Assembly (NCBI GenBank): GCA_016790515.1
Contig: JAEUOY010000129.1
Coordinates: forward strand, 1 to 47,187
From: Burkholderiaceae bacterium
GTDB taxonomy: Bacteria > Pseudomonadota > Gammaproteobacteria > Burkholderiales > Burkholderiaceae_C
Reading direction: 5' to 3'
Length of the DNA: 47,187 nt
Positions 33,160-41,042 of the stretch are shown in pieces. Each line of letters opens with the position of its first letter. Positions within the stretch are counted from its first letter, which is position 1. The notes under the pieces are model-generated. The model saw only the letters and a program-made list of their open reading frames with translations, was not told where the DNA came from and made no database searches. Made by a program: the position numbers and the translations under genes.

Positions 33160-33184
33160 CAACCGACAGGCCGCGGGCGCGCGC

Positions 33185-34015
33185 TCAGCGGGTCAGCCCG
33201 CGCCGCGCGCCATAGCTCAGCGCGTCGACCAGCGCGACCAGCAGCAGCATCGCGCCGAGGATCGTCGCGGTCTTGCCCATGTGGAACAGGCCCATGTGGA
33301 AGGCCAGCAGCTGGCCCAGCCCGCCGGCGCCGACGACGCCCAGCACCGCGGCGGCGCGGATGTTGTTCTCCCAGCGGTACAGCGTGTAGCTGACCAGCTG
33401 CGGCAGCACCTGCGGCAGCGTGGCGTACAGCAGCACCGGCAGCACGCCGACGCCCTGCGCGCGCAGCGCGGCCGCCGGGCCGGGCGGCGCGTTCTCGAGG
33501 CTTTCGGCGAACAGCCGGCCGAGCACGCCGGTGGTGTGCACGGCCAGCGCCAGCGTGCCGGCAAAGGGCCCCAGCCCGGCCGAGATCAGCAGCAGTCCGG
33601 CCCAGACCAGCTCGGGCACCGCGCGCAACGCGTTCAGCAGCCAGCGGGTCGGCGCGCGGCCGCGTGCGGCGTCGCCGGCATGCCGCCGGCTGGCCGGCAG
33701 CGCCAGCAGCAGGCCAGCCGCCGCGGCCAGCAGCGTGCCCAGCGCCGACATCGCCAGCGTCTCCCAGGTCGCCGCCAGCAGCTGGCGCAGGAAGGCCGGC
33801 GAGGTGTCGGGCGGGAAGAACTCGGCGACGAAGCGGCCCATGCTGCGCGCTGAGTCGGCCGACAGGAACTGCGCCCACTGCAGGTCCAGGCTCCAGAAGC
33901 TGGCGACCACCAGCCCGATCGCGGCCAGCGTGAACCAGCTGGCGCGGCAGCGTGCGTCGAAGATCGGCGGCGGCAGCCTGTACGGCGGATTCGTGGCCTG
34001 GCGCGGGCGTGTCAT
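33185..34015 (-). CDS. PhnE-type ABC transporter permease, second subunit
   Basis: The 276-residue inner-membrane protein has about six helices and the binding-protein-dependent permease loop region (ALRAQGVGVLPVLLYATLP with an EAA-like segment ESLENAPPG). RAVPELVWAGLLLISAGLGPFAGTLAL and YRWENNIRAAAVLGVVGAGGLGQLL are diagnostic of PhnE relatives. It is the last gene of the phnD-C-E-E-like operon, starting 4 nt after the first permease ends, and presumably forms a heterodimer with it. The likely substrate is discussed under the binding protein. Confidence 0.88.
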   Translation of the reverse strand: MTRPRQATNPPYRLPPPIFDARCRASWFTLAAIGLVVASFWSLDLQWAQFLSADSARSMGRFVAEFFPPDTSPAFLRQLLAATWETLAMSALGTLLAAAAGLLLALPASRRHAGDAARGRAPTRWLLNALRAVPELVWAGLLLISAGLGPFAGTLALAVHTTGVLGRLFAESLENAPPGPAAALRAQGVGVLPVLLYATLPQVLPQLVSYTLYRWENNIRAAAVLGVVGAGGLGQLLAFHMGLFHMGKTATILGAMLLLVALVDALSYGARRGLTR

Positions 34016-34019
34016 GCGG

Positions 34020-34880
34020 TCATCCCAGGCGCTCGCGCAGCCCGCTGCTGATGCGGTCGGACAGCGCCACCAGCGCGACGAAGACGGCCAGCATCGTCAG
34101 CACCTCGCCGCCGTTGAACATCTTCATCGAGCTGTCCATCTGCTGGCCCAGGCCGCCGGCGCCGACGAAGCCCAGCACCACCGAGCTGCGGATCGCGCAT
34201 TCCCAGCGGTAGACGGTGTAGCTGGTCAGCTCGGCGGCGTTCTGCGGCAGCAGGCCGTAGGCGAAGGCCTGCAGCCGCGACGCGCCGTTGCGCAGCAGCG
34301 TCTCGGTGGCATGGGTCTCGCCGCTTTCGAGGATCTCGCCGTAGACCTTGCCGAGCATGCCGCCGTAGGTCAGCGCGATCGCCAGCACGCCGGCGGTGGG
34401 GCCCAGACCGACCACCCGCACGAAGACCAGCGCCCAGACCAGCTCGGGCACGCTGCGCAGCACGATCAGCAGCCAGCGCAGCGCCTGGCGCAGCCAGAAG
34501 GCGCCAAGCGCCATGCGGCCCGACAGCGCCGAGATCGACAGCACGCGGGTCGACAGCAGCGTCAGCGGCAGCGCGATCGCCAGCGCCAGCGTCATGCCGG
34601 CGGTGGCGATCGCCACCGTGCGCCAGGCCTCGCGCGCCACCAGCGCCAGGAAATCGGGCGCATGCGCCGGCGGCAGGAAGCTGGCGAGGAAGCGGCCGGT
34701 GACCTTCAGGCTCTGCGGCTCGAACAGCACCCAGGGCCTGAACTCGGTGGCGACGAAAAGCGGCGCCAGCAGCACCGCCGCGGCGCCGCACCAGAACAGC
34801 CGGCCGAGCCAGGCCGGGTCGTGGTCCGGCGCTCTGTCCGGTGAACGACGCGGCGGCGGTCGCAGCGCGACGGTGTTCAT
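34020..34880 (-). CDS. PhnE-type ABC transporter permease, first subunit
   Basis: The 286-residue permease has an N-terminal cytoplasmic arm, about six membrane helices and the family strings VLRSVPELVWALVFVRVVGLGP, GKVYGEILESGETHATETLLR (EAA loop) and YRWECAIRSSVVLGFVGAGGLGQQM. It starts 8 nt after the ATPase gene and is paralogous to the permease that follows, giving a two-permease importer. Phosphonate and phosphite importers share this layout, so the family name does not define the substrate. Confidence 0.88.
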   Translation of the reverse strand: MNTVALRPPPRRSPDRAPDHDPAWLGRLFWCGAAAVLLAPLFVATEFRPWVLFEPQSLKVTGRFLASFLPPAHAPDFLALVAREAWRTVAIATAGMTLALAIALPLTLLSTRVLSISALSGRMALGAFWLRQALRWLLIVLRSVPELVWALVFVRVVGLGPTAGVLAIALTYGGMLGKVYGEILESGETHATETLLRNGASRLQAFAYGLLPQNAAELTSYTVYRWECAIRSSVVLGFVGAGGLGQQMDSSMKMFNGGEVLTMLAVFVALVALSDRISSGLRERLG

Positions 34881-34888
34881 CGCGAGGA

Positions 34889-35725
34889 TCAGCGGCAGTG
34901 CATCACCACCGGCGCCGGTGCGGCAGGCGCGGAATCGGCAGCGCTCGCCGCGGCCTCGCCGCGCAGTTCGTGCTCATGCTGGGCGTACAGCGCGGCCAGG
35001 TGGGCGCGCGAGACCTGCGACGCCGGCAGGTCGAAGGCCAGCTGTCCGTCGCGCAGCCCGACGATGCGCGGAAAGTGCGCCAGCGCCATGTCGACCTGGT
35101 GCAGCGTGGCCACCAGCGTGATGCCTCGCTCGTGCGCCTGCCGCACCAGCGTGCCCAGCGCCTGCGCGGCGCGGGCCGGGTCCAGCGCCGACAGCGGCTC
35201 GTCGACCAGCCAAAGCCGCGCCGGCGCCAGCAGCGCGCGCGCCAGCCCGACGCGCTGGCGCTCGCCGCCGGAGAGCCGGTCGACGCGTTCGAACAGCTTG
35301 TCGGCGAGGTCGAAATGGTCCAGCGCCTCGTGCGCGGCCGGGATGTCGTGCGGGTAGAACAGCGAGCGCAGGCTGGCCCACAGCCCCATCGCCGGCAGCC
35401 GGCCGGCCAGCACCGCGGTGACCACGCGCTGGCGCGGCGGCAGCGGCGGCACCTGCGGCGCCAGGAACAGCCGGCCGCGCAGGCGCTGCAACGCGCGCCG
35501 CGGCAATGTCCAGGGATCTTGCCCGTCGATCTGCAGCGCACCGGCCGACGGCGGCATCGCGCCGGCCAGCACCTGCAGCAGCGTCGTCTTGCCGGCGCCC
35601 GAGGGCCCGATCACCGCCACCTGCTCGCCCGCGGCGACGGCCAGCGCCAGCCCGCGCAGCGCCGCCGCGCTGCCGGCGCGGGCAGCCGGGTGGCGCGCCC
35701 ACAGCGCGTCGGTCTGCAGCTTCAC
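34889..35725 (-). CDS. PhnC-type ABC transporter ATP-binding protein
   Basis: I choose the GTG at 35725, 13 nt after the binding-protein stop, because it begins at the usual domain edge (VKLQTDALWARHP); an ATG at 35818 would lie inside the upstream gene. The 278-residue ATPase has Walker A GPSGAGKTT, signature LSGGERQRVGLARALLA, Walker B LWLVDEPLSALDP and H-loop ATLHQVD. The C terminus carries an extra Ala/His tail ending VVMHCR. It powers the PhnE-type permeases. Confidence 0.9.
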   Translation of the reverse strand: MKLQTDALWARHPAARAGSAAALRGLALAVAAGEQVAVIGPSGAGKTTLLQVLAGAMPPSAGALQIDGQDPWTLPRRALQRLRGRLFLAPQVPPLPPRQRVVTAVLAGRLPAMGLWASLRSLFYPHDIPAAHEALDHFDLADKLFERVDRLSGGERQRVGLARALLAPARLWLVDEPLSALDPARAAQALGTLVRQAHERGITLVATLHQVDMALAHFPRIVGLRDGQLAFDLPASQVSRAHLAALYAQHEHELRGEAAASAADSAPAAPAPVVMHCR

Positions 35726-35738
35726 GGGAAGCCGGCCT

Positions 35739-36611
35739 TCAGAGCAGCCCGGCCGAGCGCGCCGCGGCCTCGATGCCCTTGTAGTTGTCGGCCTGCGTCG
35801 GCACGAAGCGGGTGGCACGCTGCAGGTCGAGGATCTCCTTGCCCTCGGCGCTGTCGCGGCTCAGCGCCAGGAAGGCCTGGCGCAGCTTCTCGCGCAGCGC
35901 GGCGGGCATCTCGGCGTGCACGGTCCAGTTGTAGTCGTAGTACGGCGGCGTGGTGTAGACGACCCGCACCTGGGCCGGGTCGACCTTCTTGTCGGCGACG
36001 AACTTGTCCCACACCGAGATGTTCAGCGCCCCGCCCTGCACCTTGCCCGAGGCCACCGCGGCGATCGTCGCGTCGTGCGCGCCGCTGTAGGCGACGCGGC
36101 GGAAATCCTTCTCGGGGACGATGCCGGCGGCGAGCAGGAAGCTGCGCGGCATCAGGTGGCCCGAGGTGCTGCTCTGCGCGCCGAAGCTGAGGTCCTTGCC
36201 CTTCAGGTCGGCCAGCGCCTTGACTGCCGGGTCGCTGGTGATGAAGACCGAGCGGAACTTCTCGTCCTCCTCGCGCTGCACCAGCGGGATCACCTTGCCG
36301 CCCGACCGAACATTCGCCTGCACGAAGGTGAAGCCGCCGAACCAGGCCAGGTCGACTTTCTTGTTGACCAGCGCCTCGACCGACGCGGCGTAATCGGTCA
36401 CCGGCGTGTACTCGACCTTCATGCCCAGCTTGCCCTCCAGGTACTTGACCAGCGGGCCGGCCTTGCGCGCCAGCTCTGTCGGCGATTCGTCGGGGATCGC
36501 GGTGACGCGGAACACGCCCTGGGCCTGCGCCGGGTTGCCGAAGGCAAGCAGCGCGCAGGCCAGCAGCGATGACAGCACGCACACGGCGCGCCGGGACGAC
36601 GGACGGAACAT
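35739..36611 (-). CDS. PhnD-type periplasmic binding protein, putative selenium-oxyanion importer
   Basis: The ATG at 36611 has AGGAG upstream and gives 290 residues with a signal peptide cleaved near AQA (28-30). The mature protein is a PhnD-family solute receptor: AIPDESPTELARKAGPLVKYLE, VTDYAASVEALVNKKVDLAW, SSTSGHLMPRSFL, RVAYSGAHDATIAAVASGKV, YTTPPYYDYNWTVHAEMP and the end YKGIEAAARSAGLL. From memory these strings match the clade proposed by genome context to bind selenate or a related selenium oxyanion rather than phosphonate. Its divergent neighbour is the egtD/sen/selD locus, which supports that reading. Phosphonate or phosphite remain alternatives. It is the first gene of its operon. 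Confidence 0.82.
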   Translation of the reverse strand: MFRPSSRRAVCVLSSLLACALLAFGNPAQAQGVFRVTAIPDESPTELARKAGPLVKYLEGKLGMKVEYTPVTDYAASVEALVNKKVDLAWFGGFTFVQANVRSGGKVIPLVQREEDEKFRSVFITSDPAVKALADLKGKDLSFGAQSSTSGHLMPRSFLLAAGIVPEKDFRRVAYSGAHDATIAAVASGKVQGGALNISVWDKFVADKKVDPAQVRVVYTTPPYYDYNWTVHAEMPAALREKLRQAFLALSRDSAEGKEILDLQRATRFVPTQADNYKGIEAAARSAGLL

Positions 36612-36652
36612 TGGAGGGACTCCTGGTGATTGGCCGCAAGGGCCGACGGTGC

Positions 36653-36701
36653 GCCACTCTATACGGCTATGCGGCGATGCGTCCCGCGCTGATAGAGTGG
36701 C
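36653..36701. promoter_or_regulatory. 10-bp inverted repeat in the divergent importer/egtD promoter region
   Basis: GCCACTCTAT (36653-36662) and ATAGAGTGGC (36692-36701) are exact inverted copies separated by 29 nt, inside the 110-bp region between the divergent starts of the binding protein (36611) and egtD (36722). A site placed symmetrically between two divergent genes suggests co-regulation or mirrored promoter elements. The right arm lies 21 nt before the chosen egtD start, which argues against a longer egtD reading frame. Confidence 0.5.
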
Positions 36702-36721
36702 CGCGCCCACCGCGCAGCCCG

Positions 36722-37684
36722 ATGAAGTCCCCGCAGTTCCTGCAGTTGCACCGCCCCGACGACCGCGCGCTGGCCGCCGGGGCCGCCGCCGGCCTGCTGG
36801 CGCGCCCGGCGCAGGTGTCGCCCAAGTTCTTCTACGACGCGCTGGGCTCGCGGCTGTTCGACGCGATCACCGAGCTGGCCGAGTACTACCCCACCCGCAC
36901 CGAGGCGGCGATCTTCGAGCGCCACGGCGCGGCGATCGCCCAGGCCGCGCTGGCCGCCACCGGCGCCCAGCCGGTGCTGGTCGATCTGGGCGCGGGCAAC
37001 TGCGCGAAGGCGGCGCGGCTGTTCGGCGCGCTGGCACCGCGGCGCTACGTGGCGGTGGACATCGCGGCGGACTTCCTGCGGCAGTCACTGCAGCAGCTTC
37101 AGCAGGCCCATCCGCTGATCGCGATGCTGGGCCTGGGGCTGGACTTCTCGATGCGGCTGGAACTGCCGGCCGACACCGTCAGCGGCCCGGCGCTGGTGTT
37201 CTACCCCGGCTCCAGCATCGGCAACTTCGCGCCGGACGGCGCGCTGCGCCTGCTGCGCGAGGCGCGCGAGGTCGCCGCCGGCGGCGCGCTGCTGATCGGC
37301 GCCGACCTGGTCAAGCCCACCGCGCTGCTGGAGGCCGCCTACGACGACGACCTGGGCGTCACCGCGGCCTTCAACCTGAACCTGCTGAAGCACCTGAACC
37401 GGCTGCTGGGCGCCGATTTCGACGTGCGCGGCTGGCGCCATCTCGCCTGCTTCGACGCCGAGGCCTCGCGCATCGAGATGCACCTGGAGGCGCGCGGCGC
37501 GACCACCGTGCGCTGGCCGGGCGGCGAGCGCGCGTTCCGGCCGGGCGAACGCATCCACACCGAGAACTCGTACAAGTGGACGCCCGAGGGCTTCGGCGCG
37601 CTGCTGCGCCGGGCCGGCTTCGAGCGGCTGCAGGTCTGGACCGACCCGAAGGGCTGGTTCGGCGTGTGGCTGGCCTGCGATTAG
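36722..37684 (+). CDS. egtD: L-histidine N-alpha-methyltransferase
   Basis: The 320-residue SAM-dependent enzyme trimethylates histidine to hercynine, the precursor of ergothioneine and selenoneine. Family features are SPKFFYDALGSRLFDAITEL, EYYPTRTEAAIF, LVDLGAGNCAKAARL (SAM site), YVAVDIAADFL, FYPGSSIGNF, GADLVKP and the C-terminal HTENSYKWTPEGF. Upstream in-frame ATGs exist, but 36722 gives the family N terminus (MKSPQFLQLHRP). Its last bases overlap the convergent senA-like pseudogene by 4 nt. It is intact and should supply hercynine to EgtB encoded downstream. Confidence 0.95.
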   Translation: MKSPQFLQLHRPDDRALAAGAAAGLLARPAQVSPKFFYDALGSRLFDAITELAEYYPTRTEAAIFERHGAAIAQAALAATGAQPVLVDLGAGNCAKAARLFGALAPRRYVAVDIAADFLRQSLQQLQQAHPLIAMLGLGLDFSMRLELPADTVSGPALVFYPGSSIGNFAPDGALRLLREAREVAAGGALLIGADLVKPTALLEAAYDDDLGVTAAFNLNLLKHLNRLLGADFDVRGWRHLACFDAEASRIEMHLEARGATTVRWPGGERAFRPGERIHTENSYKWTPEGFGALLRRAGFERLQVWTDPKGWFGVWLACD

Positions 37685-38361
37685 GTCGCGCAGCTTCGAA
37701 ACCCCGCCGGCACGTCGTTGCGATGGGCCGCGACGAAGTCGAGGTAGTGCGGGTGGCGCAGGCGCGGCTGGGTCATGAACGACGCGCCGCGCAGCACCGG
37801 CCGGCCGTCGAACCAGGGCGCCGAGTCATCGCCGCCGGGGTGTGGGCGAAAGCCCGGATACGGCGCAAACGGACTCGCGGTCCACTCCCAGACCTGCCCC
37901 CAGCGGAAGCCATCCGGCCGACCGATCGCCGCGCGCTCCCGTTCGGCCTCGGTCGGCAGGCGGCGGCCGGCCCAGCGGCACCAGGCCTCGGCCTCGAAGC
38001 CGCTCAGGTGGCAAGCCGCCTCGTCCAGCGGCCGCCGGCGCGGGCCCTCGGGGTCGGCACGCCAGCCCTGCCGCCAGGCCAGGAAACGCGCCAGCCAGCA
38101 GTCCTGGAACCGGCCGACGTGGCCCAGCTCCCACAGCGGCGGGTTCGGCTCGGCGCGCAGCGGCACCTGCAGTCCGGGCAGCGCTCGCTCGTAACGCGCG
38201 AACAGCGCCGGCGTGTCGGCACGTGACGCGGCCAGCGCGGCCGCCAGCGCGCCCGGCGTCGACGGGCGGGCCTGGGCGGCGGCTGGGGGTATGCTGGACG
38301 GGTTCCAACCGGGGTCAAACGGATCGGACCGACGTCGGGGGCGCCACCGTGGCGCCGCCAT
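37681..38361 (-). pseudogene. senA: senA-like selenoneine synthase remnant with internal deletion
   Basis: The open frame encodes 226 residues, about half the length I expect for SenA/EgtB-type proteins. The N-terminal piece of the DinB-like domain is recognisable (LWELGHVGRFQDCWLARFLAWR) and runs directly into the C-terminal FGE-sulfatase part (DEAACHLSGFEAEAWCRWAG, LPTEAERERAAIG, GASFMTQPRLRHPHY, AHRNDVPAGFRSC). The intervening region with the second iron-binding His motif (HExxH-like) is missing, and tryptophans conserved in relatives are replaced (HVGRF for HxGWF, LSGFEA for LSWFEA, EAERERA for EAEWERA). No stop interrupts the frame. I infer a non-functional remnant; a shortened protein with a new role cannot be excluded. 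Confidence 0.7.
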
Positions 38362-38400
38362 CGCGGTTGCCGACATCTCTGCCAGATCAGCGCAGCCGCC

Positions 38401-39693
38401 ATGCTTCCAGCCATCGATGGGTCCCCGGCCGAGCTGGCCCGCCGCTACCGGTCGGTGCGCGCGGCCACGCTGGCGCTGACCGCGCCGCTGAGCGAGGCCG
38501 ACGCGCAGGCGCAGAGCATGACCGACGCCAGCCCGGCCAAATGGCACCTGGCGCACACCACCTGGTTCTTCGAGACGCTGGTGCTCGAACGCTTCGAGCC
38601 CGGTTTCCGGCCGCACCAGGGCGCCTACCGGATGCTGTTCAACAGCTACTACAACGCGATCGGCCAACCCGCGCAGCGTTCGCAGCGCGGGCTGATCACG
38701 CGGCCGGGACTGGCCGAGGTGCTCGCCTACCGCCGCGCGGTCGACGAACGCGTGCAGGCGCTGCTGGGCGGCGACCCGGGCGCGACCGCGCTGTCGCTGC
38801 TGACGCTGGGCCTGCACCATGAGCAGCAGCACCAGGAGCTGATCCTCACCGACCTGCTGCACCTGCTGTCGTGCCACCCGCTGCTGCCGGCCTACCGCCC
38901 GGCGCCGGCGCCGGCCGTGGGCGGCGCGGTGCCGCTGTCGTGGATCGCGAACGAGGGCGGGCTGGTCGAGATCGGCCATGGCGGCGCCGGCTTTGTGTTC
39001 GACAACGAACAGCCGCGCCACCGCCAGTGGCTGGCGCCCTACGCGCTGGCCAACCGGCTGGTGACGCAGGGCGAGTGGGCCGACTTCGTCGCCGACGGCG
39101 GCTACCGCGAGCCGCGCTGGTGGCTGGCCGCCGGCTGGGACTGGCTGCGCACGCATCGCATCGAGCATCCGCTGTACTGGCAGCGCGACGGCGCCGGCCT
39201 CTGGCAGGTGTTCTCGCTGCGGGGCCTGCAGCCGCTGCAGCGCGAGCGCCCGGTGGTGCAGGTGAGCCTGTACGAGGCCGATGCGTTCGCCGCCTGGTCG
39301 GCCGCGCAGTCGGGGCTGCCGCTGCGGCTGCCGACCGAAGCCGAATGGGAGCATGCCGCCGCGCCGCTCGCCCCGGCCGGCCTGGCCGAGGGCAACCTGC
39401 TCGACGACGACCGGCTCGAGCCGCAGCCGGCGGCCGATCGGCCGGGCCTGCAGCAGCTGTTCGGCGACGTCTGGGAATGGACGCGCAGCGCCTACGCGCC
39501 CTACCCCGGCTTCCGGCCCTGGGACGGCGCGGTCGGCGAATACAACGGCAAGTTCATGGCCAACCAGGTCGTGCTGCGTGGCGGCTCCTGCGCGACGCCG
39601 CGATCGCACCTGCGCGCCAGCTACCGCAACTTCTTCCCGACCGACGCGCGCTGGCAGTTCAGCGGCCTGCGCCTGGCCTGCGACGCGGCGTGA
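38401..39693 (+). CDS. egtB: ergothioneine biosynthesis protein EgtB (hercynine oxygenase)
   Basis: The 430-residue non-haem iron enzyme joins hercynine to a thiol donor as a sulfoxide. The DinB-like N-terminal domain shows DASPAKWHLAHTTWFFETLV (H49/H52) and LHHEQQHQELILTDLL (H140, H144, E146), which hold the iron ligands. The FGE-sulfatase domain follows with NRLVTQGEWADF, LRLPTEAEWEHAA, DVWEWTRSAYAPYPGF, NGKFMANQVVLRGGSCATP and YRNFFPTDARWQFSGLRLAC. All signature residues look intact, in contrast to the senA-like remnant 40 nt away on the other strand. Its stop overlaps a GTG that opens the senB-like fragment. Confidence 0.95.
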   Translation: MLPAIDGSPAELARRYRSVRAATLALTAPLSEADAQAQSMTDASPAKWHLAHTTWFFETLVLERFEPGFRPHQGAYRMLFNSYYNAIGQPAQRSQRGLITRPGLAEVLAYRRAVDERVQALLGGDPGATALSLLTLGLHHEQQHQELILTDLLHLLSCHPLLPAYRPAPAPAVGGAVPLSWIANEGGLVEIGHGGAGFVFDNEQPRHRQWLAPYALANRLVTQGEWADFVADGGYREPRWWLAAGWDWLRTHRIEHPLYWQRDGAGLWQVFSLRGLQPLQRERPVVQVSLYEADAFAAWSAAQSGLPLRLPTEAEWEHAAAPLAPAGLAEGNLLDDDRLEPQPAADRPGLQQLFGDVWEWTRSAYAPYPGFRPWDGAVGEYNGKFMANQVVLRGGSCATPRSHLRASYRNFFPTDARWQFSGLRLACDAA

Positions 39694-39950
39694 CCGACCG
39701 CTGGCGCGGCGGCACGCCGGTGATCGCCTCGCGCATCGACGGCAACCTGGGCCTGCTCGGCGACGACTGGCCGGCGACCTTCCCGGTCGGCGACGATGCC
39801 GCCCTGGCGGCGCAGTTGCTGAGCGCGCGCGACGATCCGGCTATGCTGCCGGGTCTGTGCGACCGCGCGGCGCGGCGCGCGCCGCTGTTCACCGCCGAGG
39901 CCGAGGCCGCCGCGCCGCGCCGCATCGCCGGCGGGCTGCTGCCGGCCTGA
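39690..39950 (+). pseudogene. senB: C-terminal fragment of a senB-like selenosugar synthase (GT4 glycosyltransferase)
   Basis: From a GTG overlapping the egtB stop, 86 residues remain. RWRGGTPVIASRIDGNLGLLGDDWP and FPVGDDAALAAQLLSARDDP match the end of GT4-type glycosyltransferases, where the donor-binding and C-terminal helices lie. The N-terminal acceptor domain and most of the donor domain are absent. SenB makes a selenosugar from a UDP-sugar and selenophosphate in selenoneine synthesis; its place between a senA remnant and selD/senC supports the assignment. The fragment cannot be an active glycosyltransferase. The preserved start overlap means it may still be translated. Confidence 0.7.
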
Positions 39951-39965
39951 TCCTGGAGACCGACC

Positions 39966-41042
39966 ATGAATGCCCCCGAGACGCTGGCGCAGTGTCCCGC
40001 CGAACCCCGCCTGACCTCGCTGTCGCACGGCGGCGGCTGCGGCTGCAAGATCGCCCCCGGGGTGTTGTCCGAGATCCTGAAGGGCACCGCGGCGATGCCG
40101 ATGCCCAGGGAACTGCTGGTCGGCATCGAGACCGCCGACGACGCCGCGGTGTACCAGCTCAACGACGAGCAGGCGCTGATCGCGACCACCGATTTCTTCA
40201 TGCCGATCGTCGACGACCCGTTCGACTTCGGCCGCATCGCCGCGACCAACGCGATCAGCGACGTCTACGCGATGGGCGGCCGGCCGATCCTGGCGCTGGC
40301 GCTGGTCGGCATGCCGATCAATGTGCTGTCGGTCGCGACGATCGCCAAGGTGCTCGAAGGCGGGGCAGCGGTCTGCCGTGCGGCCGGCATCCCGGTCGCC
40401 GGCGGCCACACGATCGATTCGGTCGAGGCGATCTACGGCCTGGTCGCACTGGGGCTGGTGCACCCGAAGCGGGTCAAGCGCAACGCCGATGCGAAGCCGG
40501 GCGACCTGCTGGTGCTGGGCAAGCCGCTGGGCGTCGGCGTGATGAGCGCGGCACTGAAGAAGGGCGAGCTCGATGCCGCCGGCTACGCCCGGATGATCGC
40601 CACGACGACGAAGCTGAACACGCCCGGCCCGGACCTGGCCGAACTGCCCGGGGTGCATGCGATCACCGACGTGACCGGCTTCGGCCTGGCCGGCCATGCG
40701 CTGGAGATGGCGCGCGGCGCCGGCTGCGAGACGCAGATCGACTGGCGCTCGGTACCGTTGCTGGCTGGCACGCGCGCGCTCGCGGCGCAGGGTTTCGTCA
40801 CCGGTGCCTCGGGCCGCAACTGGACCGGCTACGGCGCCGACGTGACGCTGCCGACCGGCTTCGCGGCCGAGGACCAGGCGCTGCTGAGCGACCCGCAGAC
40901 CAGCGGCGGCCTGCTGGTGGCCTGCGACCCGACCGTCGTCGATGCGGTGCTGGCGATCTTCCAGCGCCACGGCTTCGAGCAGGCGGCGGTGGTCGGGCGC
41001 GTGACCGCGGCCAGCGGCAGACCGGGCCTGCGGGTCGGCTGA
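39966..41042 (+). CDS. selD: selenophosphate synthetase (selenide, water dikinase; SelD/SenC)
   Basis: The 358-residue enzyme makes selenophosphate from selenide and ATP. The N-terminal active site SHGGGCGCKIAPGV has Cys25 and Lys28 at the positions of E. coli C17 and K20. ETADDAAVYQLND, TTDFFMPIVDDPFDFGRIAATNAISDVYAMGGRP, AGGHTIDSVE, MTDVTGFG-like ITDVTGFGLAGHALEM and LLSDPQTSGGLL follow. Length and motifs are normal, so it is active by appearance. By position it is the senC of a sen cluster, but it can equally serve selenocysteine or selenouridine synthesis, which would explain why it stays intact while senA and senB decay. Confidence 0.95.
   Translation: MNAPETLAQCPAEPRLTSLSHGGGCGCKIAPGVLSEILKGTAAMPMPRELLVGIETADDAAVYQLNDEQALIATTDFFMPIVDDPFDFGRIAATNAISDVYAMGGRPILALALVGMPINVLSVATIAKVLEGGAAVCRAAGIPVAGGHTIDSVEAIYGLVALGLVHPKRVKRNADAKPGDLLVLGKPLGVGVMSAALKKGELDAAGYARMIATTTKLNTPGPDLAELPGVHAITDVTGFGLAGHALEMARGAGCETQIDWRSVPLLAGTRALAAQGFVTGASGRNWTGYGADVTLPTGFAAEDQALLSDPQTSGGLLVACDPTVVDAVLAIFQRHGFEQAAVVGRVTAASGRPGLRVG

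Follow-up and report, generated by a model that had tools for sequence, protein, structure and literature searches.

The window analyzed here, the whole 47,187-nt stretch, is the entire contig C9 of a betaproteobacterial genome of 5.0 Mb in 176 contigs (82% complete), and the reading of the locus rests on this single genome of its species, compared with relatives by sequence. Selenoneine synthesis is a selenium pathway that was described recently. The founding paper on the sen cluster is reportedly that of Kayrouz et al. 2022. On the minus strand of the window, an ABC transporter at 33188-36611 is retained beside the locus and comprises the second (33188..34015; TIGR01097 255 bits, above the cut-off of 217) and the first (34023..34880; 197 bits, below that cut-off) of two phosphonate-type permeases, both collinear with the relative G017, an ATP-binding protein (34892..35815; best profile TIGR02315, 187 bits, below the cut-off of 266; 79% identity to G017), and a substrate-binding protein (35742..36611; TIGR04553 405 bits, cut-off 250), which makes the system a putative selenate transporter. 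It is followed by egtD (36722..37684, plus strand), encoding an intact histidine N-methyltransferase (TIGR03438 359 bits over 36722-37681, cut-off 291), a senA remnant of 226 codons (37681..38361, minus strand), an intact egtB (38401..39693, plus strand; TIGR03440 541 bits, cut-off 360), a senB remnant of 86 codons (39690..39950, plus strand), and an intact selenophosphate synthetase gene, selD/senC (39966..41042, plus strand; NF002098 531 bits, cut-off 299; TIGR00476 421 bits, cut-off 125). The first-pass annotation had called egtD, egtB and selD/senC intact, and all three were indeed found above the curated profile cut-offs; its coordinates were right in general, apart from the start of egtD, which is most likely the ATG at 36722 and not 36653.

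The senA-like frame had been described as lacking the middle of the protein, and this was borne out by blastn against G017, in which 17 bp at the deletion junction (38017..38033) face 623 bp of the relative (L132 10998-11620); the net difference of 606 bp (202 codons) leaves the reading frame unchanged. The remnant aligns with the SenA structure 8k5i over residues 22-142 and 293-423 (of 427), and failed the SenA equivalog test NF041186 (208 bits against a cut-off of 420, E 1.9e-61), on which the intact SenA of three relatives scored 504-510 bits. A three-histidine iron triad is stated for EgtB, at the level of an abstract, and by homology the HEDMHH segment would carry two of the three iron-binding histidines of SenA; in the remnant the first histidine (residue 81) is kept and the HEDMHH segment is deleted, leaving the site incomplete. 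That the frame is open says little, because it stays open for 719 codons and passes antisense through egtB. To this was added a conserved-column test, with 31 of 38 extracted SenA rows kept (identity to G017 SenA of 45% or more, length of 380 residues or more) and near-invariant positions defined as at least 97% uniform in these 31 other rows. Seven of 43 such positions are changed in the remnant (L51P, W84R, W141R, Y176G, Y179D, R207L and N208D, in window residue numbers), while the same positions show no change in 26 of the other rows and 1-3 changes in five, the divergent row L154 having three. The earlier remark on replaced conserved tryptophans holds for two, both turned into arginine (residues 84 and 141); 'several' was too many, the rest of the seven changes affecting other residues.

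The senB-like frame is a C-terminal tail, as had been proposed, covering only positions 234-306 of the 310 in the TIGR04348 profile and aligning with residues 240-326 (of 331) of the SenB structure 8jjq. It failed the TIGR04348 equivalog test with 72 bits (cut-off 300, E 4.6e-20), a model on which G017 SenB reaches 443 bits. Alignment to G017 resumes at 39690, at senB codon 236, with 705 bp (codons 1-235) lost; the junction between the egtB 3′ end and the senB tail thus falls at 39684..39704, the egtB match stopping at 39683, and the GTG of the remnant overlaps the egtB stop. In the accessible part of PMC10891094, N20, T23, T83, T85, K158 and E231 are reported as key residues of SenB, with Lys158, Asn20, Thr23 and Glu231 needed for activity. 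All of these (residues 20, 23, 83, 85, 158 and 231) precede residue 240, where the tail starts, and are therefore absent. Among near-invariant positions, the tail changes 3 of 15; the 19 other rows, kept from 33 extracted at a length of at least 280 residues and including two rows from one genome (G081), show no change in 16 and 1-3 in three, L034 having three. As rows L154 and L034 also show three changes each, the near-invariant columns give strong evidence for SenA and modest evidence for SenB. Profile and solved-structure alignments identify the two frames as SenA and SenB remnants, the fragments scoring as nothing else; the alternative that they are full-length members of other families was ruled out by the curated profiles and by the 8k5i and 8jjq matches. 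Neither remnant can be a working enzyme of its family, since the HEDMHH segment falls in the senA gap and the SenB tail begins beyond the key residues.

Thirteen sen regions of relatives, nine of them within the genus and four in other parts of the family, were compared with the window. The order transporter (minus), egtD (plus), senA (minus), senB (plus), senC (plus) was found in G017, G020, G008, G002 and, mirrored, G082, and 12 of the 13 regions have a head-to-head senA-senB pair. The exception is G014, in which senB directly follows egtD; this region was also considered as a second decaying locus and rejected, the break in its senC being a run of N and its SenA lying on another contig (477 bits). 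In G017, G008, G002 and G082 (mirrored in the last), egtB is found on the far side of the transporter and points the opposite way to the window's gene. The window is collinear with G017 DNA over 33170-37679 (83% identity), 37688-38016, 38034-38295 and 39690-41042, and this collinearity is broken at two places only, the senA gap and egtB. As a separate observation, G020 shows the reverse of the window's situation: its sen locus is intact, and its 96%-complete genome has no EgtB over the cut-off.

In the window, egtB occupies the place of the first 235 codons of senB, within the former head-to-head senA-senB pair. Its stretch 38455-39683 aligns in reverse to the distant egtB of G017, and DNA matches were also found in the inverted egtB of G008 and G002. 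In a tree of 94 EgtB rows, picked by length from 99 extracted, the window EgtB falls in a starred clade with EgtBs of the genus (5 rows, 97/87; 6 rows, 99/96). When the window was searched with G017 EgtB, no leftover egtB emerged at the old site: apart from the present gene and the senA remnant, every match had an E of at least 2. We therefore favour relocation of egtB within the locus over its arrival from an unsampled relative. A gain from outside followed by insertion was rejected as the favoured reading on the clade placement; it is kept as a rival that we consider unlikely yet worth weighing, given that the window EgtB is only 62-64% identical to the EgtBs of the genus (G017 to G008, 67%) and sits on a long tip (0.52), against which stand the placement in the genus clade and a GC3 of 0.942, like that of the neighbours. 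The genus was also observed to hold two unrelated egtB-egtD types, one linked to sen and the other a separate pair (for example in G003, G015 and G005) with its own starred clade.

The intact genes of the locus served as controls for the substitutions. EgtB changes 1 of 108 near-invariant positions (other rows up to 11), EgtD 2 of 83 (up to 8) and SenC 2 of 185 (up to 3), all inside the range of the other rows. In rate trees of five or six taxa, with the topology fixed by us and the SenC tree built without G002, the SenA and SenB trees have their longest tip at the window (0.49 and 0.64; G010 follows with 0.45 and 0.47), unlike those of EgtD (0.30 versus 0.38 in G010) and SenC (0.10 versus 0.14 in G008). 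For the window tip, the length at codon positions 1+2 relative to position 3 amounts to 0.58 in SenA and 0.88 in SenB (other tips pooled, 0.46 and 0.53), and to 0.32 in EgtD and 0.23 in SenC (other tips, 0.35 and 0.33). Pairwise dN/dS between the window and G017 is 0.41 for SenA and 0.60 for SenB; the intact genes of G017 and G008 give 0.36 and 0.57, so that the ratios hint only weakly at relaxed selection on the remnants. GC3 is 0.88-0.89 in the SenA remnant, 0.91 in the intact senA of G017, and 0.94-0.97 in egtD, egtB, senC and the binding protein. Rates and GC3 would fit a loss of sen that is recent relative to the split from G017.

To place the locus within the family, 399 genomes, drawn evenly from a larger group, were searched for SenB with matches accepted at E up to 1e-16. 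Matches were obtained in 145 genomes, 142 of them over the curated cut-off; within the genus, SenB passes it in 9 of 21 genomes. The three genomes below the cut-off are the window's, G367, whose match is cut at a contig end, and G420, whose match (67 bits, in the middle of the SenB model) is probably a general glycosyltransferase. Only the window's genome carries a SenB tail inside a contig, so that the short forms do not represent a conserved variant in the genomes searched, and its locus is the only decaying one identifiable among the 145 SenB-matching genomes. For SenA, short and truncated-looking hits were found in G075, G060, G001 and G019. A full-length SenB over the cut-off with one internal TGA was seen at G342:C132:25019-25951, which may be a further decaying copy or reflect an error in sequencing. 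A literature search on selenoneine together with pseudogenes returned a sole match, which concerned histidine production.

A SenA paralogue of full length was observed in 16 genomes of the genus (L112, L267-L281), scoring 302-306 bits on NF041186, below the cut-off of 420. Its iron site is degenerate, with the second histidine of HxxxH lost in 16 of 16 and the first-ligand histidine replaced by Gln or Arg in 13 of 16. Five neighbourhoods (L282-L286) were fetched; there the gene comes after ispA and dxs, and a response regulator and a gene for a Rieske-type oxygenase occur close to it. The paralogue, which was not found in the 82%-complete assembly of the window's genome, looks like a conserved pseudoenzyme.

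Elsewhere in the genome, evidence for another use of selenium was found. A single copy of selD was detected, the one in the window. A full selA is present on contig C165 (561 bits), and selB was recovered in two pieces at the ends of C165 and C117 (197 and 154 bits, each below the cut-off of 242), with a tRNA-Sec beside the second piece on C117. Because selB is split across their ends, the start of C165, which bears selA, and the end of C117, which bears the tRNA-Sec, are probably neighbours. Formate dehydrogenase-like matches, from the one selenoprotein family tried, have no stop inside the matched stretch, and no selenoprotein with TGA read as a residue was found near selA. The selU gene, present in 18 of 21 genomes of the genus, was not found in the 82%-complete assembly. 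The earlier proposal that SelD was kept for other uses is supported by selA, the split selB and the tRNA-Sec, together with the single selD: selD would be retained because selenophosphate is still needed for selenocysteine.

These results lead us to read the locus as a recently inactivated selenoneine (sen) locus, in which selenoneine synthesis would have been lost and ergothioneine kept, with a probability of about 0.88. The fall-back to ergothioneine that the first-pass annotation suggested is supported by the intact egtB and egtD and by the retention of selD with selA, split selB and tRNA-Sec. As to mechanism, an in-frame deletion would have removed about 202 senA codons, including the HEDMHH segment, and a rearrangement would have set egtB in place of senB codons 1-235, in an order that, like the loss of product and the move of egtB within the locus, we infer from the present arrangement. 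EgtD would still yield hercynine and EgtB the sulfoxide precursor of ergothioneine, so that ergothioneine, and no selenoneine, is the expected product of the cell, and selenium uptake and activation would be retained for selenocysteine. A more specific version is an in-place switch from selenium to sulfur, in which relocation of egtB both disabled selenoneine synthesis and aligned egtB with selD, so that an ergothioneine enzyme is expressed from the old selenium locus. The egtB stop and the GTG of the senB remnant overlap, and this remnant in turn extends as far as selD, which places egtB in line with selD; we regard this switch as a tentative possibility, with the odds against it.

Other explanations would leave selenoneine synthesis in place or give the remnant a function. 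The assembly is of a metagenome type, with 176 contigs and 82% completeness, and a chimeric or collapsed contig from an organism with an intact sen locus could in principle imitate gene loss. However, near-invariant substitutions do not arise by misjoining, and the contig is collinear with relatives on either side. The longest exact repeats at the three junctions (13, 12 and 16 nt) also lie within the background of 40 random stretches (median 14, maximum 17). An artefact is therefore improbable. It is very improbable that selenoneine is still made, whether by EgtB using a selenium donor or by another sen copy in the portion of the genome that the assembly lacks. This route could draw on the intact selD and selenate-type transporter, on the 18% of the genome that is missing, and on the former attribution of selenoneine to non-specific use of the ergothioneine pathway, reported in the accessible part of PMC10702425; yet the selenocysteine machinery already accounts for selD, and the second intact sen cluster that had been offered as an alternative was not found, no further senA or senB appearing in the 82%-complete assembly searched.

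Retention of the 226-residue SenA-like protein for a non-catalytic job, such as hercynine binding, is scarcely credible. Its frame is open and in phase across the deletion, and SenA-fold proteins without the triad can persist, as shown by the paralogue that 16 aligned genomes of the genus conserve despite its degenerate iron site. Open frames are cheap here, however, as the 719-codon open stretch that crosses egtB on the antisense strand illustrates, the protein lacks the segment of 8k5i from about 110 to 310 with 7 of 43 near-invariant positions broken in what is left, and the short form was not seen in 149 relatives searched, bar the four truncated-looking hits mentioned above. Inactivation of the sen locus with retention of ergothioneine accordingly stays the preferred reading. 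Together with G017 and G020, the locus offers a natural before-and-after pair on when selenium becomes dispensable to the ergothioneine/selenoneine antioxidant pair, and it means that a selD adjoining egt genes is no proof of selenoneine production.

Compared with known systems, the senA remnant shares the N-terminal ~110 and the C-terminal ~130 residues with SenA (NF041186; solved structures 8k5i and 8ryz) and differs from 8k5i in lacking the ~200 middle residues, between about 110 and 310. The senB tail shares the last ~86 residues of SenB (TIGR04348; 8jjq and 8fbx), whereas the first ~235 are gone, including all key residues given in the part of the source available. As in the ergothioneine pair egtB-egtD, both window genes are intact and over the curated cut-offs, but egtB stands in the old sen pair, separate from egtD. 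With the sen cluster (senA-senB-senC) the window shares genes, order and surroundings as in G017, G020, G008, G002 and G082, and differs from that of the relatives in having senA and senB broken, with egtB between them. The locus is thus a confirmed pseudogene locus of a known pathway, dated well by synteny, and what is new here is the place of egtB.
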